NCBI GenBank assembly: GCA_021300195.1
Contig: JAJTIE010000049.1
Span: forward strand, 1-46,831
DNA: 46,831 nucleotides
Direction: 5' to 3'
Source of the DNA: Bacteroidota bacterium
Lineage (GTDB): Bacteria > Bacteroidota > Bacteroidia > J057 > JAJTIE01
The notes beneath the pieces are model-generated. The model was not told the DNA's origin. It saw nothing but the letters and a program-made list of their open reading frames with translations, and did no database searches. Positions within the stretch are counted from its first letter, which is position 1, and every line of letters starts with the position of its first letter. A program made the translations under genes and the position numbers. This document shows positions 1 to 46,831 of the stretch, one piece after another.

Positions 1-66
1 ACCTGCCCGGGTGGCCTGGATGTGTGCGACGCGAGCGGAAATGGCAACCATGGCGTGAAACAATAA
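1..66 (+). CDS. LamG-array protein, 3' end only (array member 1)
   Basis: Only the last 21 codons are in the window, read in frame 1 and ending at a TAA at 64-66. They encode the family's C-terminal signature with two cysteines (CPGGLDVCD) followed by DASGNGNHGVKQ. This matches the ends of the ten downstream paralogues, so the array continues to the left of the window. It is odd in ending in Gln, where all complete members end in Phe or Tyr, and in having L for Q within the Cys motif. No function can be assigned beyond family membership. Confidence 0.85.
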   Translation, partial: TCPGGLDVCDASGNGNHGVKQ

Positions 67-91
67 TGATGGAACCAATCTTTAAAAAAGT

Positions 92-805
92 ATGATACCA
101 ATTCTGATTGTAATTTCAGCTTGCCTCGCCGGTTCCTGTTATGGACAAGGTTCTTCGGGTGCACTGGCGTTTTCCGGGAGTTCCTACTTATCTATTGGAA
201 ATTCGGTTAGCGTTAGGCCCAGCACTGCACTTACGCTGGAAGCATGGGTGTATGTAACCAATCACCTAGGCACTGACAGGCGCATGCTGATAAGTAAAGA
301 TGATGACTGGAATCCCGCCACCTCGGGCTACCATATGTGGATAGAAGGGGGAAGTGGTACACCTGTCTTTGGCGTGGGGAACAATGTGGTCAATGGAACT
401 TATGTTGCTGGTGCAGACCCTTTTCCCCTGAATGGGTGGCATCATCTGGCAGGTACTTTTGTAGCGGGTACCTTGCAGCTTTATCTGGATGGAGTGCTTA
501 TTGCAAGCAGTAATTCTGCGCCGGCCACCATCGGCTATAGCACAGATGAGCTAAGAATTGGCAGGTTAAGCGCCGCGTTTTCCACTTACAATTATTTCTT
601 TGATGGTAGAGTAGATGAGATTCGCATCTGGAACCGCGCCCTAACGGAGGCCGAAATTCGCCATAAGATGACCGAGCGGCTGACGGGCACAGAGCCAGGC
701 CTAGCAGCCTACTGGCGTATGGACGAGGGCACAGACAACACCTGCCCTGGCGGCCAGGACGTATGCGATGCGAGTGGAAATGGCAATCACGGAACTAAAT
801 TTTAA
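92..805 (+). CDS. Secreted single-domain LamG/concanavalin-like protein (array member 2)
   Basis: This 237-residue protein has a signal peptide (residues 1-18, cleaved near CYG|QG) followed by one LamG_3-type beta-sandwich. First comes the opening strand GALAFSGSSYLSI, then LEAWVYV, a HHLAGTF strand, the LYLDGVLIAS hairpin, and the family closing block VDEIRIWNRALTEAEIRHKM. It ends in the constant block EPGLAAYWRMDEG, the cysteine pair CPGGQDVC and GNHGTKF. An in-frame TAA at 83-85 limits the start to ATG 92. LamG folds usually bind carbohydrate or protein, but no ligand is visible. There is no T9SS domain, so Sec export to the periplasm or surface is likely. The next gene begins 4 bp downstream. 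Confidence 0.85.
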   Translation: MIPILIVISACLAGSCYGQGSSGALAFSGSSYLSIGNSVSVRPSTALTLEAWVYVTNHLGTDRRMLISKDDDWNPATSGYHMWIEGGSGTPVFGVGNNVVNGTYVAGADPFPLNGWHHLAGTFVAGTLQLYLDGVLIASSNSAPATIGYSTDELRIGRLSAAFSTYNYFFDGRVDEIRIWNRALTEAEIRHKMTERLTGTEPGLAAYWRMDEGTDNTCPGGQDVCDASGNGNHGTKF

Positions 806-809
806 GAAA

Positions 810-1526
810 ATGAAGAAACGGTTGTTTAGTACTTTTGTTGTGAGTATTTGCCTTGCTAGCTTGGCGGTTGCCCAGGGAGCAGGTAGCTCACTGGCGTTTG
901 ATGGCGGCAGCAGTCATGTACAAATAGGCAGCGGCTCGAGCCTCAATCTAGAGGGTAGTGCCATCACCATTGAAGCCTGGATTTTTGTATCAGGCTATCC
1001 CGTGGTGTATCCCACTATCATTGCCAAGGGTAATTCCTTAAATAGTTATGAGTTTGATGTTCACAACAGCGGCGCGCTAACATGGTCACTTGGCCTCTCA
1101 TCCGGTCAGAAAACGTTGACGAGTCTTGCCGGCACAGTTGCCAGTAATACCTGGGTGCATGTAGCTGGAACTTATGATGGGTCACGAATGCGTTCTTATA
1201 TAAATGGGATTGAGGTGGCTAGTGTGAATGCCAGTGGAGCGATAGTGGGCAATGCACTGCCACCCCGTATTGGGATACGTACCAATTGTTGCTCCCCCAC
1301 TTCCTCTATTGGGTCGCCATTTCAGGGAGAAATCGATGAAGTGCGCATCTGGAACCGAGCACTTACACAGGACGAAATCCGCCACAGGATGACCGAGCAC
1401 CTGGCAGGTACCGAGCCCGGCCTGGTAGCCTACTACCGTATGGATGAGGGCACAGACAATACCTGCCCCGGCGGCCAGGATGTATGTGATGCCAGCGGGA
1501 ATAATAATCATGGAATTAGATACTAA
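810..1526 (+). CDS. Secreted single-domain LamG protein (array member 3)
   Basis: This 238-residue paralogue starts at ATG 810, four bases after the preceding stop. An in-frame ATG at 768 would lie inside the preceding gene and would put a non-signal leader in front of MKKRLFSTF. The signal peptide ends AVA|QG. The domain shows ALTIEAW-type strands (TIEAWIFVSG), VHVAGTYDG, RSYINGIEVA, then DEVRIWNRALTQDEIRHRM, EPGLVAYYRMDEG and the CPGGQDVC pair, with C-terminus GIRY. It contains an extra CC pair (RTNCCSPTSS) in the variable region before the closing helix, which is unusual in the array. Its spacing to both neighbours implies one polycistronic unit. Confidence 0.84.
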   Translation: MKKRLFSTFVVSICLASLAVAQGAGSSLAFDGGSSHVQIGSGSSLNLEGSAITIEAWIFVSGYPVVYPTIIAKGNSLNSYEFDVHNSGALTWSLGLSSGQKTLTSLAGTVASNTWVHVAGTYDGSRMRSYINGIEVASVNASGAIVGNALPPRIGIRTNCCSPTSSIGSPFQGEIDEVRIWNRALTQDEIRHRMTEHLAGTEPGLVAYYRMDEGTDNTCPGGQDVCDASGNNNHGIRY

Positions 1527-1531
1527 AGAAT

Positions 1532-2269
1532 ATGAAAATCTTATCAACTTTCTCCCTGGTACTGCTCTTTTCTGTTTCTGGCTTTGCTGAGGCCCAGCCG
1601 GGCCGCGCAATAGACATAGATGGCATAGGCTATGTACAGGTCCCCAATTTCAGCAGCCTGGATGGTGCCAACGACATTACCCTGGAAGCTTGGGTATACC
1701 TGAAGAGCGACGCAGCCGAATGGGACCGCATCCTTGATGCTGACTCAGGTGTAAGTGGGGCGAATCAGCAGCCCCGGTTTATGATGGGTTTTGGCATGAA
1801 CAACCGTATTCGCTTCCGCATTAATGATTATGGCCAGTATCAATACCTATTTGGTATGGAGAGCATTTCCGCAGTACCTACCAGCCAATGGGCGCACATT
1901 GCATGTGTACGTTCATCGGGCAACATGCGCATCTATATCAATGGTGTTCAAGATGCGAATGTCGGATACTTTACTAATCCGATTCAGACATTTGCCAATA
2001 ACCCGGATCTCAGCATTGGGTCAATAACAGGATATTTGGGATGCGGTGGGCCATGTTCCTACCTGCCAGGTATGGTAGACGAAGTGCGCATCTGGAGCCG
2101 CGCGCTGAGTGAGGCGGAAATTCGCCATAAGATGACCGAGCGGCTGGCGGGTGCTGTGCCCGGCCTGGTGGCTTACTACCGCATGGATGAGGGCACAGAC
2201 AACACCTGCCCGGGCGGCCAGGACGTATGCGATGCGAGTGGAAATGGCAATCATGGGGTTAAGTTTTAG
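1532..2269 (+). CDS. Secreted single-domain LamG protein (array member 4)
   Basis: The product has 245 residues, with signal peptide MKILSTFSLVLLFSVSGF...AEA|QP. Its opening strand (AIDIDGIGYVQVPNF) is less like the QGxxxALxF consensus than that of the other members. Then come LEAWVYLKSD, AHIACVRSSG, RIYINGVQ, DEVRIWSRALSEAEIRHKM and the constant tail ending GVKF. A variable-region CGGPC motif adds two cysteines. The stop codon TAG at 2267-2269 shares its AG with the first unit of the heptamer repeat that follows. Start ATG 1532 is 5 bp after the previous stop. Confidence 0.84.
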   Translation: MKILSTFSLVLLFSVSGFAEAQPGRAIDIDGIGYVQVPNFSSLDGANDITLEAWVYLKSDAAEWDRILDADSGVSGANQQPRFMMGFGMNNRIRFRINDYGQYQYLFGMESISAVPTSQWAHIACVRSSGNMRIYINGVQDANVGYFTNPIQTFANNPDLSIGSITGYLGCGGPCSYLPGMVDEVRIWSRALSEAEIRHKMTERLAGAVPGLVAYYRMDEGTDNTCPGGQDVCDASGNGNHGVKF

Positions 2270-2344
2270 CAACCAGCAACCAGCAACCAGCAACCAGCAA
2301 CCAGCAACCAGCAACCAGCAACCAGCAACCAGCAACCAGCAACC
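2268..2344. repeat. Heptamer tandem repeat, 11 perfect copies of AGCAACC
   Basis: Eleven exact, uninterrupted copies of a 7-bp unit fill most of the 106-bp gap between array members 4 and 5. The repeat begins inside the stop codon of member 4 and ends 31 bp before the ATG of member 5. Perfect short repeats of this kind slip easily during replication, so the copy number probably varies between strains. Because 7 is not a multiple of 3, each slip also changes reading frame for anything that reads through. An effect on expression of member 5 through spacing is inference. Confidence 0.95.
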
Positions 2345-2375
2345 TCCTAGTAGTTAACTAAAAGGAAATAATCCC

Positions 2376-3095
2376 ATGAAGCGTCTGATTTTATTTACTA
2401 TTTGTTATTCGCTGTTCGCTAGTTACGGGCAGGGGAGTGTAAGTGCCTTAAGTTTTTCCGGCGACGGATACATTAGCCTCCCTAGTACAATTGCCTTTGA
2501 CAATCGCGATTTTACCGTATCTATGTGGGCAAAGATTGACCCCGTGCAGCCCATTTATTTCACGAACCTGTGGGGAAGTGGATACACTCAAATAGGCTCG
2601 GGGTATACACGCGACATTGAGTTTTATCTGGAAACGAGTGGAACCCCGGCAAGGACAACCCCAGGAATTCATGTGCGAGATGGCAGTTCTGCCTTGGGTG
2701 TTGCTACCAGCTTTCAGGTAAACGATGGTGCCTGGCATCATCTGGTTTTTATGCGAACAGGTTCCGTTTTTTCTATACACATCGATGGTATTTTGGCCGG
2801 TGCTAGTTCGGGTGCATTGGGCGATTTAGATGATACGGGTGCCCCAGTACGGCTCGGCAGCCTTTTCTTTTCTATGCAGGACCGGCGAATGAGAGGTGTG
2901 CTCGACGAAGTAAGCATCTGGAACCGCGCGCTTACAGAGGATGAGATTCGCCACAAAATGACCGAGCGGCTGGCTGGCACCGAGCCTGGCCTGGTAGCTT
3001 ACTACCGCCTGGATGAGGGTGCAGACAATACCTGCCCGGGTGGCCAGGATGTGTGTGATGCCAGCGGGAATAATAATCATGGGGTGAAGTTTTAG
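2376..3095 (+). CDS. Secreted single-domain LamG protein (array member 5)
   Basis: The product has 239 residues, with signal peptide MKRLILFTICYSLFASYG|QG. The LamG core has ALSFSGDGYISLP, VSMWAKIDPV, HHLVFMRTG, FSIHIDGILAG, DEVSIWNRALTEDEIRHKM and the constant tail EPGLVAYYRLDEG with CPGGQDVC and GVKF. It is the first gene after the heptamer repeat, and the 106-bp gap is by far the longest in the array. It is therefore the best candidate for having a separate promoter or repeat-dependent control, though I see no clear -33/-7 pair there. Sugar or protein binding is only a family-level expectation. Confidence 0.84.
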   Translation: MKRLILFTICYSLFASYGQGSVSALSFSGDGYISLPSTIAFDNRDFTVSMWAKIDPVQPIYFTNLWGSGYTQIGSGYTRDIEFYLETSGTPARTTPGIHVRDGSSALGVATSFQVNDGAWHHLVFMRTGSVFSIHIDGILAGASSGALGDLDDTGAPVRLGSLFFSMQDRRMRGVLDEVSIWNRALTEDEIRHKMTERLAGTEPGLVAYYRLDEGADNTCPGGQDVCDASGNNNHGVKF

Positions 3096-3119
3096 TAAGA
3101 AAAAGTTTATTAAGAACGC

Positions 3120-3851
3120 ATGAAAAAGATTCTGCTATTTATTGCCTGCTGCCTCTTTGCTATCGCCTATGGCCAGGGCAGCGTTCGGGCCCTGGGCTTT
3201 ACGGGCGATCGAGTGCCGATGCCGGGTGGGGGTATACCCACTGAGGCTAATCCGCCAGCAGGTGTTAGCATCAGTCATTCGTTTCTTAATAACAGGGCCG
3301 AATACACCTGGGAGGCCTGGGTCTTTAATCAATCTAACGAGGAGAGTTGGGTATACGGGGAAGGGAATCCGCAGCTCACTTTTGCCGTTGGACTCGGCCC
3401 GGGTGTGTTCTATGTTGCTGCCCACAATGAGGGGGTTTCTCCCCCATGGCAGCTTGTTAGTATCCCCACCGGAGCGGCTGTACCCACCAATGAATGGGCC
3501 CATTTTGCGGTTACGCGAAGAAACAATGGAACCACTACCTTGTACATAAATGGCGTACAGGTTGCTACTGGGGCGCTACATGTGCAGAGCCACTCGGCTA
3601 CGAGCCAGGCCGCAATTGGTATAAACCCTGGCTTCACCTCTCAGATTGATCTGCCCTTTAGGGGGATAGTGGACGAAGTCCGCATCTGGAACCGCGCCCT
3701 AACGGAGGACGAGATCCGCCACAAAATGACCGAGCGACTGACGGGTAGCGAACCCGGCTTTGCTGCTTATTACCGCATGGATCAGGATGCTTGCCCAGGG
3801 GCAGATGTGTGTGATGCAAGCGGACAAAACAATCATGGCGTGCGGTTCTAG
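3120..3851 (+). CDS. Secreted single-domain LamG protein with shortened tail (array member 6)
   Basis: The product has 243 residues, with signal peptide MKKILLFIACCLFAIAYG|QG. The domain carries ALGFTGD, YTWEAWVFNQ, AHFAVTRRNN, TLYINGVQ and DEVRIWNRALTEDEIRHKM. The C-terminal block is shortened: EPGFAAYYRMDQDACPGADVCD lacks the usual EGxDNT and one of the Gly residues, yet keeps both cysteines and ends GVRF. A long proline- and glycine-rich insertion after the first strand (around residues 35-55) is unique in the array. ATG 3120 follows the previous stop by 24 bp. Confidence 0.83.
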   Translation: MKKILLFIACCLFAIAYGQGSVRALGFTGDRVPMPGGGIPTEANPPAGVSISHSFLNNRAEYTWEAWVFNQSNEESWVYGEGNPQLTFAVGLGPGVFYVAAHNEGVSPPWQLVSIPTGAAVPTNEWAHFAVTRRNNGTTTLYINGVQVATGALHVQSHSATSQAAIGINPGFTSQIDLPFRGIVDEVRIWNRALTEDEIRHKMTERLTGSEPGFAAYYRMDQDACPGADVCDASGQNNHGVRF

Positions 3852-3888
3852 GGAGTGGAAGATTTTTTTACCGTATGAATACTTAAAA

Positions 3889-4611
3889 ATGAAGAACATG
3901 AGAGGGATATTACTAATCGCATTTTTCAGCCTATTTGCTATGGCCCATGGCCAGGGGGCAGGTAGTGCGTTAGATTTTAATGGGGTAGCCGGAGGCATTC
4001 GTGTGGGCAATAGCGCGACCCTTAACTTTGGTCTTGGTGATTTTTCCCTAGAGCTATGGGTAAGGGTACCGTCCACCCTTACCCTGGAGGAACTAGTTGT
4101 GGTTGGGAAGCGCCCTGTCTGCGGAAATTCAAACTTTTGGAATATCCGAACAAGCCCCACTGATGGTATATACCTGGAGGTTTCGAATAGTGCTCTAGGT
4201 GAGGATGACCGTTGTGGTGCGGGTCTCATTTATGATGGCGAATGGCATCATGTTGCCTTCGTCCGCCGTGGCCGGGAGATTCGTAGTTACCGCGACGGAA
4301 GCCTTTTCGCTACAACCACTCTACGTTTCGATTACAATGTAGATAACTCGGTTGACATGTTTATCGGCGATGGTGTCTGTGCCGGGATTGGCCGTAATGG
4401 GCGAATGCAAGGCAATGTAGATGAGCTCCGCATTTGGAGCCGTGCCCTAACAGAAGAGCAGATCCGCCACAAAATGACCGAACGCCTGCGGAACGCTGAG
4501 CCCGGCCTGGTGGCCTACTACCGCCTAGATGAGGGTGCAGACAATACCTGCCCAGGCGGCCAGGATGTATGCGATGCCAGCGGGAATGCGAATCACGGGG
4601 TAAAATTCTAG
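3889..4611 (+). CDS. Secreted single-domain LamG protein (array member 7)
   Basis: The frame is open from 3760 inside member 6, but the signal peptide begins at ATG 3889 (MKNMRGILLIAFFSLFAMA, cleaved at HG|QG); ATG 3898 is an alternative. The protein from 3889 has 240 residues: ALDFNGVAGGIRVG, LELWVRVPST, HHVAFVRRG, RSYRDGSLFA, DELRIWSRALTEEQIRHKM and tail EPGLVAYYRLDEG, CPGGQDVC, GVKF. Two extra Cys pairs lie in the variable region (VCGNSN and DDRCGAG). Its 3' end and the 17 bp after it are almost identical to those of member 8, which marks the left edge of a recent duplication. Confidence 0.83.
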   Translation: MKNMRGILLIAFFSLFAMAHGQGAGSALDFNGVAGGIRVGNSATLNFGLGDFSLELWVRVPSTLTLEELVVVGKRPVCGNSNFWNIRTSPTDGIYLEVSNSALGEDDRCGAGLIYDGEWHHVAFVRRGREIRSYRDGSLFATTTLRFDYNVDNSVDMFIGDGVCAGIGRNGRMQGNVDELRIWSRALTEEQIRHKMTERLRNAEPGLVAYYRLDEGADNTCPGGQDVCDASGNANHGVKF

Positions 4612-4628
4612 CTTAACCTAATAGGATA

Positions 4629-5384
4629 ATGAAAAAGAGGTTCATTTATTTCGTTTCGATCCTCTGCCTGCTCACGGTAGGCCAGCGGTCGGTATGGGCA
4701 CAGGGCAGTGTTCGTGCACTTAGCTTTGATGGAAATGACTGGATACGCCTGCCCCTGCTGAGTAGCCTGAACGGCCAGCAGCAGGTAACCTTCAGCTGCT
4801 GGGTGCGCTATGGCGACCCTAACGTAAATCAAACACTTTTCGCACATTGGGGAAATAGCGTAAACCCTGTTGGCACCAATGTGGGTTTCTATATCACGCT
4901 ATTGAATCACAGACTGACGGCCAACACAAGTGCTGGCTGGTGGATGCAAACAGCAGCTGAGCCACTAGTGCCGGGCAATTGGTATCATGTGGCGGTGGTA
5001 TTTGACGGCACGCTGGCCACCGATGCGGAACGCATGCGGATGTATGTGAACGGAGAACAACAGCTTGTAGACTTCACGAATCAACCGGTTCCAGTGCCTA
5101 CAGCCATTGGAGATCGTGCAGTGATTACCCAGATCGGTGCCCGTAGGGATAACGGTAACGTACTGATAGACCACGTACGCGGTGGCGTTTTGGATGAAAT
5201 GGCACTATGGTACCGGGCTCTTAGTCCTACCGAAATTCGCCACAAGATGACCGAGCGGCTGGCGGGTAACGAGCCCGGCCTGGTGGCCTACTACCGGATG
5301 GACGAGGGCGCTGACGGAACCTGCCCAGGCGGCCAGGATGTGTGCGATGCCAGCGGGAATGCGAATCACGGGGTAAAATTCTAG
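4629..5384 (+). CDS. Secreted single-domain LamG protein, recent duplicate A (array member 8)
   Basis: The product has 251 residues, with a long signal peptide MKKRFIYFVSILCLLTVGQ...VWA|QG. The core has ALSFDGNDWIRLP, VTFSCWVRYGDP, YHVAVVFDGTLATDAERM, MYVNGEQQ, DEMALWYRALSPTEIRHKM and tail EPGLVAYYRMDEG, CPGGQDVC, GVKF. The closing block is DEMALWYRALSPTE instead of DEVRIWNRALTEDE, defining a subfamily shared only with member 9. The first ~63 residues are identical to member 9 except W23/L. The YHVAVVFDG hairpin is longer than in other members because of the TLATDAERM insertion. Confidence 0.84.
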   Translation: MKKRFIYFVSILCLLTVGQRSVWAQGSVRALSFDGNDWIRLPLLSSLNGQQQVTFSCWVRYGDPNVNQTLFAHWGNSVNPVGTNVGFYITLLNHRLTANTSAGWWMQTAAEPLVPGNWYHVAVVFDGTLATDAERMRMYVNGEQQLVDFTNQPVPVPTAIGDRAVITQIGARRDNGNVLIDHVRGGVLDEMALWYRALSPTEIRHKMTERLAGNEPGLVAYYRMDEGADGTCPGGQDVCDASGNANHGVKF

Positions 5385-5401
5385 CTTAACCTAATGGGAT
5401 A

Positions 5402-6157
5402 ATGAAAAAGAGGTTCATTTATTTCGTTTCGATCCTCTGCCTGCTCACGGTAGGCCAGCGGTCGGTATTGGCACAGGGCAGTGTTCGTGCACTTAGCTTT
5501 GATGGGAATGACTGGATACGCCTGCCCCTGCTGAGTAGCCTGAACGGCCAGCAGCAGGTAACCTTCAGCTGCTGGGTGCGCTATGGCGACCCTAGCGTCA
5601 ATCAGACGCTGTTCACCCACTGGGTGAACAGCGTGCAGCCCGTTGGGGCCAATACGGGTTTTTATGTCACACTATTTAACAATAGACTGGTGGCCAACAC
5701 GAATGCTGGGCTGGGTATGCAAACAGCAGCTGAGCCATTAGTGCCGGGCAATTGGTATCATGTGGCGGTGGTGTTTGACGGCACGCTGGCCACCGATGCG
5801 GAACGCATGCGTATGTATGTGAACGGAGAGCAGCAGCTTGTAGACTTCACCTTTCAAACGGTTCCGGTTCCCACAGCCATTGGAAACCGTGCCGTGATTA
5901 CCCAGATCGGAGCCCGACGCGGTAACAGTAATGACCTGATAGACTACGTACGCGGTGGAGTTCTGGATGAGATGGCCCTTTGGTATAGGGCCCTTAGCCC
6001 CACCGAGATACGCCATAAGATGTGCGAGCGGCTGACGGGTACAGAGCCAGGCCTAGCAGCCTACTGGCGTATGGACGAGGGTGCTGATGGAACCTGCGCC
6101 GGCGGCCAGGATGTGTGTGATGCCAGCGGAAACAACAATCATGGAGTTAAATTTTGA
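5402..6157 (+). CDS. Secreted single-domain LamG protein, recent duplicate B (array member 9)
   Basis: The product has 251 residues, starting exactly 773 bp downstream of member 8 with the same upstream sequence apart from one base. It matches member 8 through the signal peptide and the first half of the domain. It diverges around residues 64-105 (NQTLFTHWVNSVQPVGA) and again at the C-terminal block. That block (KMCERLTGTEPGLAAYWRMDEG) resembles member 2 instead: 55 of 56 bases match between 6026-6081 and 674-729. So the copy is mosaic. It has KMCE where members 2-8 have KMTE (KMRE/RMTE-like variants aside), adding a cysteine. Confidence 0.84.
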   Translation: MKKRFIYFVSILCLLTVGQRSVLAQGSVRALSFDGNDWIRLPLLSSLNGQQQVTFSCWVRYGDPSVNQTLFTHWVNSVQPVGANTGFYVTLFNNRLVANTNAGLGMQTAAEPLVPGNWYHVAVVFDGTLATDAERMRMYVNGEQQLVDFTFQTVPVPTAIGNRAVITQIGARRGNSNDLIDYVRGGVLDEMALWYRALSPTEIRHKMCERLTGTEPGLAAYWRMDEGADGTCAGGQDVCDASGNNNHGVKF

Positions 6158-6162
6158 GAAAT

Positions 6163-6897
6163 ATGAAAACTAAAGGTGCGCGATTATTCATGTATATAAT
6201 TACGGGTATGGTAGTTGCACCATATCTCGTAATCGCCCAGGGGCCTGGAGGGGCGCTGAATTTTGAAGGTACATCACGGGTGGCAGTTGCCTATAACCTG
6301 GCAGGTCATTCCCATTACACGATAAGCGCTTGGACAAAGGCGAGTATCGTGCCGAGTGGTACGAGTCATTATGACCAACGGCATGTGTTGAACCTACAAG
6401 GTACAGCCATGATTTATGGAGATATAAATGGGCAGTGGCGCATGGGATTTATGGGAAGTGACGAAATCTGGCATGGTGCCTATATAGGATCCATAGAGCC
6501 GGGCGTATGGGAGCATCTATCGCTTGTGTTTGATCGTACCGCAGGTTTCGCATTTATGTATCGGAATGGCAATCTTATCTCGAGCCTCCAACTACCTGCT
6601 GGTATTTTGCCAGTTGTTCCACCATGGCAGTCTGCTACGCTTGCCAATCATTCCGGCATAGGTGCCGGCGAAGACTTAAATACCAAACTATTTAGGGGCG
6701 ACATTGATGAGGTACGTATCTGGAGCCGCGCCCTTACCCAGGACGAAATTCGCCACAAGATGTGCGAGAAACTGACGGGCACCGAGCCTGGCCTGGTGGC
6801 CTATTACCGCATGGACGAGGGCGCAGACAACACCTGCCCCGGCGGCCAGGATGTATGCGATGCCAGTGGGAATGGGAATCATGGGATTAAGTTTTGA
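6163..6897 (+). CDS. Secreted single-domain LamG protein (array member 10)
   Basis: I choose ATG 6163 (244 residues). A TTG at 6154 overlapping the previous stop would add only three residues. The signal peptide is MKTKGARLFMYIITGMVVAP...VIA|QG. The domain has ALNFEGTSRVAVA, YTISAWTKASI, EHLSLVFDRT, AFMYRNGNLIS, DEVRIWSRALTQDEIRHKM, C at KMCEKL, and tail EPGLVAYYRMDEG, CPGGQDVC, GIKF. The gap to member 9 is 5 bp. Its N-terminal half is among the most AT-rich in the array. Confidence 0.83.
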   Translation: MKTKGARLFMYIITGMVVAPYLVIAQGPGGALNFEGTSRVAVAYNLAGHSHYTISAWTKASIVPSGTSHYDQRHVLNLQGTAMIYGDINGQWRMGFMGSDEIWHGAYIGSIEPGVWEHLSLVFDRTAGFAFMYRNGNLISSLQLPAGILPVVPPWQSATLANHSGIGAGEDLNTKLFRGDIDEVRIWSRALTQDEIRHKMCEKLTGTEPGLVAYYRMDEGADNTCPGGQDVCDASGNGNHGIKF

Positions 6898-6928
6898 GCT
6901 TTTTTTCTAGACATAAAGTTTTTGCTGT

Positions 6929-7681
6929 ATGAAGAATTTATTGTACCTGCTTTCTCTTGCTTTGTTTGCTACAGCCAGCGGGCAGGGTAGTGGGCGGGCT
7001 TTGTCCTTCCAAAATGAGGTTCATTATGTAGAGGTAGCTCCGGCAAATAGTCTAGGGGCAATGCAGGAAGGCACTGTTACAGCCTGGGTAAAGCCGAGTT
7101 CATCTGAGAACTACGGCGTGCTGATCTCTACCCGCCAGGTGGGGAGTGTTAATAACCGACAGTTTCCTATTCATGCTGTGTATGATGCAGCTACCGGTGG
7201 TATTCGGTTTGGTGTAGTGATGGTAAGCCGGACGGGCGATCTTGTTTATGTAGGAAATACCACGGTCAGTTTCACCCCGGATCAGTGGTATCACTTGGCC
7301 TATGTATCGCAGGAGGGATCCGGTACTTTTTCCCTTTATGTAAATGGGGAAATACAAGGTATGCAGACAGTTGCCGGCGGCCCTTCAGACTTTTTCTTTT
7401 CTGACGCAATGCAGGACGGAGATTTCATTCAGTTGGCTGCCAAAAGCGATTATGCAGGGATTCACCGGGGTCATTTGAGCGGTGTCCTCGATGAGATATC
7501 TATCTGGGATTACCCCCTTTCTGCTACAGATATCCGCCACAAGATGTGCGAGCAGCTGGCCGGCACGGAACCGGGCCTGGTAGCCTACTGGCGTTTCGAT
7601 GAGGGGGTGGACAATAGCTGTACTTCCGGGGCCGACCTGTGCGACCAAAGCGGCCACGGGCTAGATGGCACACTGTTCTAG
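6929..7681 (+). CDS. Secreted single-domain LamG protein, divergent last member (array member 11)
   Basis: The product has 250 residues, with signal peptide MKNLLYLLSLALFATASG|QG. The core has ALSFQNEVHYVEV, VTAWVKPSSS, YHLAYVSQEG, FSLYVNGEIQ and DEISIWDYPLSATDIRHKM with KMCEQL. The tail is the most diverged: YWRFDEGVDNSCTSGADLC replaces CPGGQDVC while keeping both cysteines, and the C-terminus is GTLF. It ends the array, and the next gene is convergent, 42 bp away. No hairpin with a T-run is visible in that gap. Edge genes of tandem arrays often diverge more because they take part in fewer exchanges, which fits here. Confidence 0.84.
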   Translation: MKNLLYLLSLALFATASGQGSGRALSFQNEVHYVEVAPANSLGAMQEGTVTAWVKPSSSENYGVLISTRQVGSVNNRQFPIHAVYDAATGGIRFGVVMVSRTGDLVYVGNTTVSFTPDQWYHLAYVSQEGSGTFSLYVNGEIQGMQTVAGGPSDFFFSDAMQDGDFIQLAAKSDYAGIHRGHLSGVLDEISIWDYPLSATDIRHKMCEQLAGTEPGLVAYWRFDEGVDNSCTSGADLCDQSGHGLDGTLF

Positions 7682-43382: not shown

Positions 43383-46300
43383 CTAGTTTGCTACCAATAT
43401 TCTTTGTTTGTAGTCTGCTTTGCCCTGCTGCACACGCAGGGTATACAGCCCGTCCTGTATGCCCGAGAGGGGGATGCGGATCCGCTGGAAGCCTGCGCCC
43501 AGGGGTCGGCTACTTGTGCGGTAGCTTGTTCTGCCCATTTGGTCTATTAGTTCAATCTCCAGCAGGCGGGTGCTACTACTAGCCAGCTCCACCCAAAGCT
43601 CGCGCGTGGCGGGGATGGGATACACACGGTGTACGCTCAGGTCTGATCCGAAGAACTCGCATTTTCGGTTGTTTTCGGTCACCAGGTCTGTAGCACCATT
43701 TATTCGGGCTACCTCGGCGCATATAAACTCGTAGGGGTTTGTAGGGCTAAAAAACCAGAGCTGGCTCAGGCTGGTATCCAGGCTGGCACCGGGTACCAAG
43801 CGCACACTGAAATCCTGGAAGGCAGGCAGGTTATCCGCCGGAAAGCTGCCAAGCCGGAAATTTTCGATAACCTGATTGCCGGTGTTCGTGAGCTGCAGGC
43901 GCGTGCGCACTACGGTACCTTCTACCGTAGCCTGCATGCCCACTATGCTCAGGTCTGCAATCGGGTCGGGGGCTGGTATGACGACCAGGCTCTGCCGGGT
44001 GGTGTCGGCGCATCCGTTCGGGTTGAGGGCTATTAGCTGGATCGTGTAGGTTCCGGGGTCCTGAAAGGCGTAGCTAAATGTAGCCGCAGTGCGCTGTTCG
44101 CCCAGGGGCTGTATCTCCCAGCTCAGGCCGGCTCCCTGCGTGCTCTGGCTGGTAAAGGTCAGGGTAGAGTCTGTATAGTACTGCCCGTTTAGATTTGCCC
44201 CTGTTACGCTAAAAAGCGCCTGCGGGACTGCCTGCACCGACACTACCTGGCTGCTGCTCAGGCTGCACCCGTTTTCATCCACCGCTGTTACAGAGATGGT
44301 GCGGACACCCGTAGTAGCGAAAATAAAGCTGGGTGCAGCTAGGGTGGAGAAGAGGGTGCCCGAGCCTGTCTCCACGGTCCAGTTGTAAGTCTGGAAGGTT
44401 TGGGTGGTGCTTAGCTGAACGGGCTGGCTCTGGCATGCCAGGGCCGGGGCCTGAATGCTCAGTGTTTTGGGTGTGGAGATGGTAATTGCCCGGCTGGTGG
44501 CAGCCTGGCAGCCCGTGCTGCTGGTAATGGTGAGCGAAACCGTATAGGTGCCCGCCGTAGCATAGTTGTGTGTGGGATTTCGCAGGTTGCTCGTATTCGC
44601 ACTCCCTGAGGCGAGATCGCCAAAGTTCCAGGCCCAGCTCACGATGCTCTGGTTTCCCCCCAGGGTGCTGGTATCTGTAAAACTCGTGTTCAGGTTTACG
44701 CAGGGCTGTGCCACGGTAAAGTTGGCAGTGGGTATTTGGCCGACGGTTACATTCTTGGTTACCGTGTCTCGGCAGCCATTGTCGTAGGTCAGGATCAGGC
44801 TCACCTCATAGGTACCCTCGAAGCCGAAGGTATAGCTGGCAGGGTTGCCAAGTATTTCCGTGCCATCTACTGCCCACTTCAAGCCACTCAACGCGGCTCC
44901 GCCCGGGGCCGTGTAGGTGGCTGTCAGGCTGGTGGGCTGGCCCACACAGCTCTGCCCCACGGCAAAGTCCGCACCCGGATACACAAGGGTCTTTGTAATA
45001 CTGTCCCGGCACCCGTTGTCCGTCGTTACGCGCAGTTTTATGTCATAAGAGCCCGGCAACAGATACTTATACTTGAAGGCACCCTGCACGTTGAGCGGGG
45101 GGTTTACAAGTGTTTGCCCGTTGCCCATTACCCACTCTCGTGTTACAATCGTCCCCTCGCTCAGCGTAGATGTCCCGGTGAAGGAAATGCTATCCCCGGG
45201 GCAGGGGTTTGTGTGGGTGAAGGAGGCAACAGGCTTTGGACGAACAGCAAGTGTTTGCGTATAGTTGTCGCTACAGCCCCTGTTGGTCGCTACATCCAGT
45301 GTTACCGTATAGTTTCCCGCACCGGGGTATGTGTAAGTAGGGTTTTGTATGCTACTGGTAGCCCCGTTGCCAAAGTTCCAGGCATAGCTGAGGGGCGCAT
45401 CCAGCGGATCTGTGGTTATCGTACTGGTAAAGGCATTGGTTTCTCCCAGGCAGCTAGGGGTGGTGGAGAAGGAGGCGGTGGGTGCCTGCAGGGCCGTTAC
45501 GGATATAACTGTATCCCTGCATCGGAATCCGTCGTTGCAAGCCTGATACTGGATAAGCCGAGGCCCGGTTCCGGTGAGACTAACCTGCGACGGGGCCGCC
45601 TGATTGGCCTGGCTGCTGCTGCCACAGTTAGCCGAGAAGGAGATGCGCACCAAATGATTGTTTACGCTGCCTTCGGATGCGGTGTAAAGTCGTAGGCCAT
45701 TATTGATATTGATAGCACTGCTAATAGCAAAGCGCTGGGGTGTTACAACAGAAGTTGAGATGGTTTGGACGGCATCATCAGAGGTATTAGCAAGGTCTAC
45801 TCCTAGTGATACCTTGTACAGATCGTTAGCTCCTCGTGTTGCGATCAGGTAATATTTGTTCCCTTCCTCTACCAAGGTGTTAAATTGAGGTGCGGTCAAG
45901 GTTGCGCTGCTAATATTTTGGGTAGAACTAGGTGCATCTGACACAGCCGTACCTAGACGAATAATGGTGTAACCGCTTCGCACATCACTCGTGCCGATTA
46001 AATAAAAAATATCTCCCTGCTTTGTTAAATGATAACTGTTTCGGGCTGCAGTAGTTGAGATTGTTATTGTTTGAACCAGTGTGAGGGCAGATGTGAGATT
46101 GTTGGCAAATGAGAAAATATGAACTTGGGTCCCATTTGTTCCTACAACCATGTAATATCGATTGTCTATATAACTGATTTCTACAGCCCACGCGGTTGTG
46201 GTCAGGTTTCCTCCCAAATTTCCAATACTTACTATTGTTGGTATGTTTTCAAAGGAGGAACCAAAGTCTAGTCGACCAATACCAACTAAGTTTAGAGAGG

Positions 46301-46808
46301 CAACGAATAAGTGCCGATTACCTGTTGTCTGATCAATGAGGGCATCACAGCCCACAAGATTACTCCCGAGTACTGTATTTGCATTATATGAAGTTCCGCC
46401 GCTGGGTGTATTACCATCACCCCCCATATTGTAACGGAAGATATTATTCGACCCTGAAAGAGATGTTACAAATACGTATGTGTTCCCAGTGCTGGGTTCG
46501 ATAATTGCATCCGAACCAGCTCCGCGTGTGTTAATATTGCTTTGCGCGTTATTGTCCGTAAAGTTGGCCTCCATGTCCTGTAGGCAGAAGTCCCACTGAT
46601 GTGAGCCAGCTACGGTGTTGTTGGTCACCTCAAGGCTGGAGCCACAGACGTACTCATTTACGTCCAGGTTTAGCACAGGTGCTTGCGCGCGCGTGTACAA
46701 GGGGGCAAGGCAATACAGGACACCAAGGAGTACTGTTAGTCGAGCAAGGGCAGATGCAAAGGGCGGGCAATACCTGGGATTGAGACGGGAGTTCAGCGTC
46801 GCATTCAT
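43383..46808 (-). CDS. Giant PKD-repeat T9SS-secreted protein
   Basis: The product has 1141 residues, with the ATG at 46808, 23 bp from the window edge. The signal peptide ends LYTRA|QAP (about 42). An N-terminal stretch with VAGSHQWDFCLQDM leads into a ~300-residue region of short beta repeats (NTYVFVTSLSGSNNIFRYNM, LYTASEGSVNNHLVRISFSA), propeller-like. Five or six PKD domains follow (SYAWNFGNGATSSIQNPTYT, SWAWNFGDLASGSANTSNLR, and others), each with conserved Cys. Then comes a CARDB-like domain (ADLSIVGMQATVEGTVVRTR) and a type A T9SS sorting domain (VYPIPATRELWVEL, ending DYKQRILVAN). It is likely an adhesin or surface protein. The propeller half is clearly lower in GC than the PKD half. 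Confidence 0.9.
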   Translation of the reverse strand: MNATLNSRLNPRYCPPFASALARLTVLLGVLYCLAPLYTRAQAPVLNLDVNEYVCGSSLEVTNNTVAGSHQWDFCLQDMEANFTDNNAQSNINTRGAGSDAIIEPSTGNTYVFVTSLSGSNNIFRYNMGGDGNTPSGGTSYNANTVLGSNLVGCDALIDQTTGNRHLFVASLNLVGIGRLDFGSSFENIPTIVSIGNLGGNLTTTAWAVEISYIDNRYYMVVGTNGTQVHIFSFANNLTSALTLVQTITISTTAARNSYHLTKQGDIFYLIGTSDVRSGYTIIRLGTAVSDAPSSTQNISSATLTAPQFNTLVEEGNKYYLIATRGANDLYKVSLGVDLANTSDDAVQTISTSVVTPQRFAISSAININNGLRLYTASEGSVNNHLVRISFSANCGSSSQANQAAPSQVSLTGTGPRLIQYQACNDGFRCRDTVISVTALQAPTASFSTTPSCLGETNAFTSTITTDPLDAPLSYAWNFGNGATSSIQNPTYTYPGAGNYTVTLDVATNRGCSDNYTQTLAVRPKPVASFTHTNPCPGDSISFTGTSTLSEGTIVTREWVMGNGQTLVNPPLNVQGAFKYKYLLPGSYDIKLRVTTDNGCRDSITKTLVYPGADFAVGQSCVGQPTSLTATYTAPGGAALSGLKWAVDGTEILGNPASYTFGFEGTYEVSLILTYDNGCRDTVTKNVTVGQIPTANFTVAQPCVNLNTSFTDTSTLGGNQSIVSWAWNFGDLASGSANTSNLRNPTHNYATAGTYTVSLTITSSTGCQAATSRAITISTPKTLSIQAPALACQSQPVQLSTTQTFQTYNWTVETGSGTLFSTLAAPSFIFATTGVRTISVTAVDENGCSLSSSQVVSVQAVPQALFSVTGANLNGQYYTDSTLTFTSQSTQGAGLSWEIQPLGEQRTAATFSYAFQDPGTYTIQLIALNPNGCADTTRQSLVVIPAPDPIADLSIVGMQATVEGTVVRTRLQLTNTGNQVIENFRLGSFPADNLPAFQDFSVRLVPGASLDTSLSQLWFFSPTNPYEFICAEVARINGATDLVTENNRKCEFFGSDLSVHRVYPIPATRELWVELASSSTRLLEIELIDQMGRTSYRTSSRPLGAGFQRIRIPLSGIQDGLYTLRVQQGKADYKQRILVAN

Positions 46809-46831
46809 TTCGGTCCGGAGTAGGGGGTGCT

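Follow-up and report, generated by a model that had tools for sequence, protein, structure and literature searches.

In polysaccharide utilisation loci, SusE/F-like proteins bind sugars (PMC11216935), and substrates of the T9SS are described as bearing a C-terminal sorting domain (PMC12618676). The T9SS translocon is a very large barrel of 36 strands (PMC10202324). LamG domains are known in both settings. A literature search returned no description of a LamG array such as the one reported here, in which 20 consecutive genes of one Bacteroidota genome encode single-LamG proteins.

The window, i.e., the whole stretch of 46,831 nucleotides that was analysed, opens with an incomplete LamG gene followed by ten complete ones (Table 1). 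According to the ORF calls, all of them lie head to tail on the plus strand, as the earlier note had described, and the gaps between them are 25, 4, 5, 106, 24, 46, 17, 17, 5, and 31 nt. When contig C12 of the same genome (locus L009) is reversed, its end matches the start of the window exactly and adds ten members. The 141-nt overlap is presumably a residue of a k-mer assembler at a graph junction. The count of 20 members is independent of the join, because m10 is complete on C12 alone. The array therefore extends past the left edge of the window, as the earlier note had stated, and its count of eleven becomes 20. In a profile search, each of the 20 members matched PF13385 (Laminin_G_3) above the curated cut-off, and a genome-wide search found this family only in the array.

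Table 1. Coordinates of the array members, the spacer repeat, and the leader gene (window positions unless locus L009 is named).
Feature	Position	Strand	Description	Evidence
Leader	L009:7834-8877	minus	347 residues; LEAD and T9SS tail; just upstream of m01	
m01-m10	L009:7712-76	minus	on contig C12	ORFs
m10, 3' end	1-66	+	141-nt overlap with reversed C12; complete m10 at L009:76-837, minus	
m11	92-805	+	237 aa; signal peptide (by eye), LamG, tail	ORF, PF13385, AlphaFold2 model
m12	810-1526	+	238 aa	ORF, PF13385
m13	1532-2269	+	245 aa	ORF, PF13385
AGCAACC x 11	2268-2344	+	perfect repeat between m13 and m14	
m14	2376-3095	+	239 aa	ORF, PF13385
m15	3120-3851	+	243 aa; tail loop shortened	ORF, PF13385
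m16	3898-4611	+	237 aa	ORF, PF13385
m17	4629-5384	+	251 aa; core 88% identical to m18	ORF, PF13385, identity matrix
m18	5402-6157	+	251 aa; m17-like core, tail nearest m11	ORF, PF13385, identity comparison
m19	6163-6897	+	244 aa	ORF, PF13385
m20	6929-7681	+	250 aa; final array gene, most divergent tail	ORF, PF13385

The N-termini of the members are hydrophobic and end, as judged by eye, in AQG/GQG-like sites, which makes them candidate signal peptides. Open reading frames are intact in 19 of the 20 genes. The exception is m09, in which an in-frame TAG follows shortly after the signal peptide (L009 ~1450–1570, minus strand) and the rest of the frame is intact. The absence of T9SS tails noted earlier was borne out: no match to the sorting domain (PF18962, TIGR04183) is listed among the 20 members, although the genome has 44 such tails. 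Likewise, no DUF1735 match is listed in any member at E values up to 10. The TafC family fimbrial protein (NF052521) was rejected as an identity for these genes, since m01 scored 49.4 bits against an equivalog cut-off of 410 bits and covered only positions 189–360 of the 373 in the model. At the other end of the window, a large minus-strand protein with a T9SS sorting tail (43383–46829) runs off the right edge.

The constant ends of these proteins had been taken for a bare 3' module, and the predicted structure gives a different picture. The earlier note had suggested structure prediction, and the AlphaFold2 model of m11 is a LamG jelly roll (mean pLDDT 87.8, pTM 0.89), in which the tail forms a helix (168–174), a strand (186–191), and the last strand (216–218). 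The constant tail is thus modelled with high confidence as part of the LamG fold, and in relatives it leads into a second domain. The closest solved structure is 4DQA (Z 23.1, 192 aligned residues, rmsd 2.3), followed by PAPP-A (Z ~22) and PTX3 (Z ~20). A donor-strand or polymer arrangement, in which the tail would be donated as a free strand to the following subunit, is not favoured, as the tail folds into its own LamG domain in the AlphaFold2 model. The tail could conceivably be a new sorting signal, but fused proteins have a tail of this kind in their interior.

The layout of the array is explained by a gene that the earlier note missed and that sits on another contig. This leader gene encodes a protein that ends in a type A sorting tail of the T9SS (PF18962 and TIGR04183, both over their cut-offs), and a T9SS is present in the genome, as indicated by the sorting-tail matches and PorV. 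Together with the named relatives, these features point to a class within Bacteroidota. Its un-named N-terminal domain of ~150 residues, which we call LEAD, matched no Pfam or NCBIfam family, and its sequence gave only chance-level matches in the PDB. The AlphaFold2 model of LEAD, built on an alignment of three sequences, was poor (pLDDT 55) and could not be used. Directly after its signal peptide, the leader starts with 'QPTWVDSGAPIGDTS', which matches the LamG/LEAD junction of fused proteins. In those proteins, the LamG tail is followed by a stretch ending in 'SGAPIGD' or near it, often preceded by 'PTW'. In the genome studied here, LEAD is encoded apart from LamG and not in one chain.

A profile built from three leaders detected LEAD in 41 of the 395 genomes of the class. 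The copies were counted in the fetched loci after overlaps had been removed by hand. About 59 of them are fused directly behind a LamG domain, four are unfused, with the next gene encoding LamG, one is at a contig edge, and one, in the genome under study, is solo. The common form in the class is a single chain that consists of a signal peptide, LamG, the LamG tail, LEAD, further domains, and usually a T9SS sorting tail. Unfused LEAD usually has LamG genes beside it, their number being 1 (in two genomes), at least 5, 8, or 20. One leader is paired with one LamG gene in G193 and L040, and fused, 1:1 split, and 1:20 split forms make up a series. Where the two are split, LamG follows the leader, which is the reverse of the fused chain; a stop codon between the domains is consequently not enough to account for the split. 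At one further locus (L145), a LamG domain is inserted within a LEAD-like domain.

Because LEAD is almost always fused behind LamG, and unfused LEAD usually adjoins LamG, we read the array as the amplified LamG half of a split LamG-LEAD-T9SS surface protein, with one anchor displaying many heads (probability roughly 0.55). Some observations weigh against this reading. The array proteins lack the sorting tail described for T9SS cargo and may stay in the periplasm. In addition, the solo LEAD protein of this genome (G000:C2, L176:1648-3844) has no LamG beside it. This second protein carries Ig-like repeats and a gliding-type (type B-like) C-terminus, as judged by eye, and its frame is apparently broken near 3002–3135.

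The unlike middles and near-constant ends that had been noticed in the window characterize the whole array. The mean pairwise protein identity is about 24% (24.5%) in the core and 83–85% in the tail. Among the window members, the tail of m20 departs furthest, being 59% identical to a consensus-like query. In the alignment, the tail motif EIRxxM..L.G.E.GL..Y(Y/W)R.DE..D.S.N.N.G is present in array members as it is before LEAD in fused proteins. At codons for the same residue, synonymous identity in the tail is.617, compared with.385 expected from codon use; in the core, the values are.365 and.346, respectively. The boundary of the tail is sharp, as the synonymous excess starts at DEVRIW/EIRHKM and stops before NHGVKF, the last six residues. 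Since this excess is confined to the tail, we conclude that tails have been exchanged or homogenised among members. Long exact tail runs link members with unlike cores (e.g., 51 nt in m03/m08), and m17 and m18 have the signal peptide and core in common but not the tail. The tail is therefore both constrained, with few amino-acid changes where synonymous sites have diverged, and partly homogenised between members.

Cysteines in the tails also vary. Fused LamG-LEAD proteins typically have the form KMC, with an extra cysteine, where others have KMT, and so do all members of the G001 array; the regions concerned are the tails of m18–m20 (window 5956–7681) and L025:4856-10657. Most array members of the studied genome are without this cysteine and have the cysteine pair of CPGGQDVC.

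Part of this evidence would fit with LamG proteins that act alone, either as soluble periplasmic or as released matrix proteins. The leader would then be no more than a neighbour in the operon, and gene conversion would keep the tail constant as a structural part of the fold. The tail is predicted to fold into the LamG sandwich, its synonymous sites bear the mark of homogenisation, and the members are without sorting tails. Moreover, the contrast between core and tail recurs in a fused repeat protein. The giant protein of G076 (L180, a frame of 5377 residues) contains at least seven LamG-LEAD units, and identity over six of them is.31 in the core,.81 in the tail, and.65 in LEAD. For this reason, a variable core with a fixed tail is to be regarded as general to repeated LamG-LEAD units, whether joined or split, and tail constancy alone is no proof of docking in trans. 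Nevertheless, independent action leaves unexplained why LamG and LEAD are near-obligate partners, fused or adjacent, across many families, and why the leader has been kept beside the array in two families. It also does not account for the fused relatives, each with its own LEAD, whose tails are only 41% alike. We consider it rather unlikely.

The earlier note had also proposed a diversifying repertoire, and one half of this proposal stands: the array does hold a repertoire of single-LamG proteins, and their cores are unlike. Ongoing diversifying selection, as in antigenic variants or recognition receptors, would suit the low core identity of the 20 members, the copy numbers that vary and the lack of orthologues between genomes, the exchange of tails, and the slippage-prone repeat in one spacer. 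This AGCAACC repeat starts at the stop codon of m13, within the 106-nt gap. However, in the two pairs whose core divergence is clearly unsaturated, omega comes to 0.19 and 0.25; synonymous sites are saturated in almost every other pair of cores, so the estimate refers to these two datable pairs. Their cores are under purifying selection. The evidence points to age as the source of the unlike cores, and recent change has not been favoured in the datable pairs. The only other assembly of this part of the array, a contig of 3145 bases from a Flammeovirgaceae MAG bin (L024), is 99.97% identical to window 2231–5375, differing at 1 of 3145 bases, and carries the identical 11 repeat copies. It represents either the same organism or a mis-binned contig, and is uninformative on copy number. 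Active diversification is thus improbable.

At the opposite extreme, the array could be the product of plain tandem duplication and drift, that is, the old birth and death of a dispensable secreted gene whose copies have no common function. The in-frame stop in m09 and the recent duplicates m17 and m18 are what such a history would leave behind. Against it stand the 19 open frames and the purifying selection on the recent pairs, as well as the recurrence of leader-plus-array loci in other genomes, and we regard it as very improbable.

This recurrence is seen in two relatives. In G001, a genome of the same family, the same leader precedes an array of eight LamG genes (contig JAHBTG010000016.1). 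In G339, of another family, the leader precedes a LamG array; one contig holds five LamG genes plus a kelch-like gene, and a second contig a further two LamG genes (at least 5 plus 2). Because the downstream neighbours of the array differ between the studied genome and G001, the conserved unit is the leader together with the array. A fixed copy number with one-to-one orthologues, named in the earlier note as evidence against a diversifying repertoire, was not what these genomes revealed: the copies number 20, 8, at least 5 (with 2 on another contig), and 1. The family relative has no one-to-one orthologues of the members, with a best core match of 33%. Tail identity within the three arrays is.85,.67, and.77, and falls to 50–65% between arrays and to.41 among fused proteins of other genomes; cores are at ~.24 in all comparisons. 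The nearest tail is in the same genome for 34 of 35 array members, while the nearest core is for only 18 of 35, close to the shuffle mean of 14. Proteins starting with 'NVGIGT..PHPKA' were observed within the LamG arrays of G339 and G001 or next to them (L143:7066-8256; L022:5423-7977), and by eye they have kelch or fibrinogen-like C-termini.

The split-anchor reading builds on what is directly observed, namely, the gene layout, the pairing of LamG and LEAD, the position of the split, the differing copy numbers, the unlike cores with near-constant tails, and the synonymous excess in the tail only. The ancestral state may have been a LamG-LEAD fusion. The LEAD part would have become a gene of its own, and the LamG part a separate secreted gene ending at the tail, which was then duplicated to 20. 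Each LamG domain might still bind LEAD, now non-covalently, via a conserved face of the tail. The anchor would be exported and fixed at the surface by the T9SS and would carry or capture its LamG partners, and the cores could bind different, probably glycan, ligands; the sugar-binding relatives are related by fold alone. One anchor could thereby display many alternative, swappable binding heads. More specifically, an anchor with LEAD and a CTD may take any of the 20 LamG heads, none of which has a CTD, through the outer membrane or else capture them outside, which would give one cell a combinatorial binding surface; we put this forward tentatively, at somewhat less than even odds. The transport of a tail-less partner by the T9SS is our own suggestion and does not come from PMC12618676 or PMC10202324. 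The origin of the array is well explained, and the proposed mechanism is testable.

The locus separates the head from the anchor and multiplies the head alone. It thus offers a natural experiment on two questions: whether a protein that lacks a T9SS sorting tail is able to get to the surface with the help of a partner, and how a single anchor could offer many binding specificities. The locus also brings to light the un-named domain LEAD, whose near-constant company, LamG, is a concrete partner to test.

With regard to known systems, the likeness to pentraxins and to the LamG domains of PAPP-A is one of fold only, as these have the same jelly roll but are eukaryotic and differ in architecture. 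BACOVA_03559 (PDB 4DQA, DUF1735 and LamG3), a SusE/F-like protein (PMC11216935), is the best structural match, and its LamG domain has an equivalent tail. However, it is encoded by a single gene in a PUL and has an N-terminal lipoprotein DUF1735 anchor, and none of these features was seen here. The giant LamG-LEAD repeat protein of G076 likewise combines several LamG units whose cores are unlike and whose tails are near-constant; these units are linked covalently and each has a LEAD of its own, whereas here many LamG genes accompany one adjacent leader. Among the closest relatives are the single-chain LamG_3 (PF13385) T9SS proteins of Bacteroidota (LamG-LEAD-...-CTD), which keep both head and anchor in one chain. 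They have the same LamG fold and the same tail motif running into LEAD, but in the present locus LamG and LEAD-CTD are separate genes, and LamG, lacking a sorting tail, occurs in 20 copies. The array is a variant of the LamG T9SS surface proteins and not a new kind of system.
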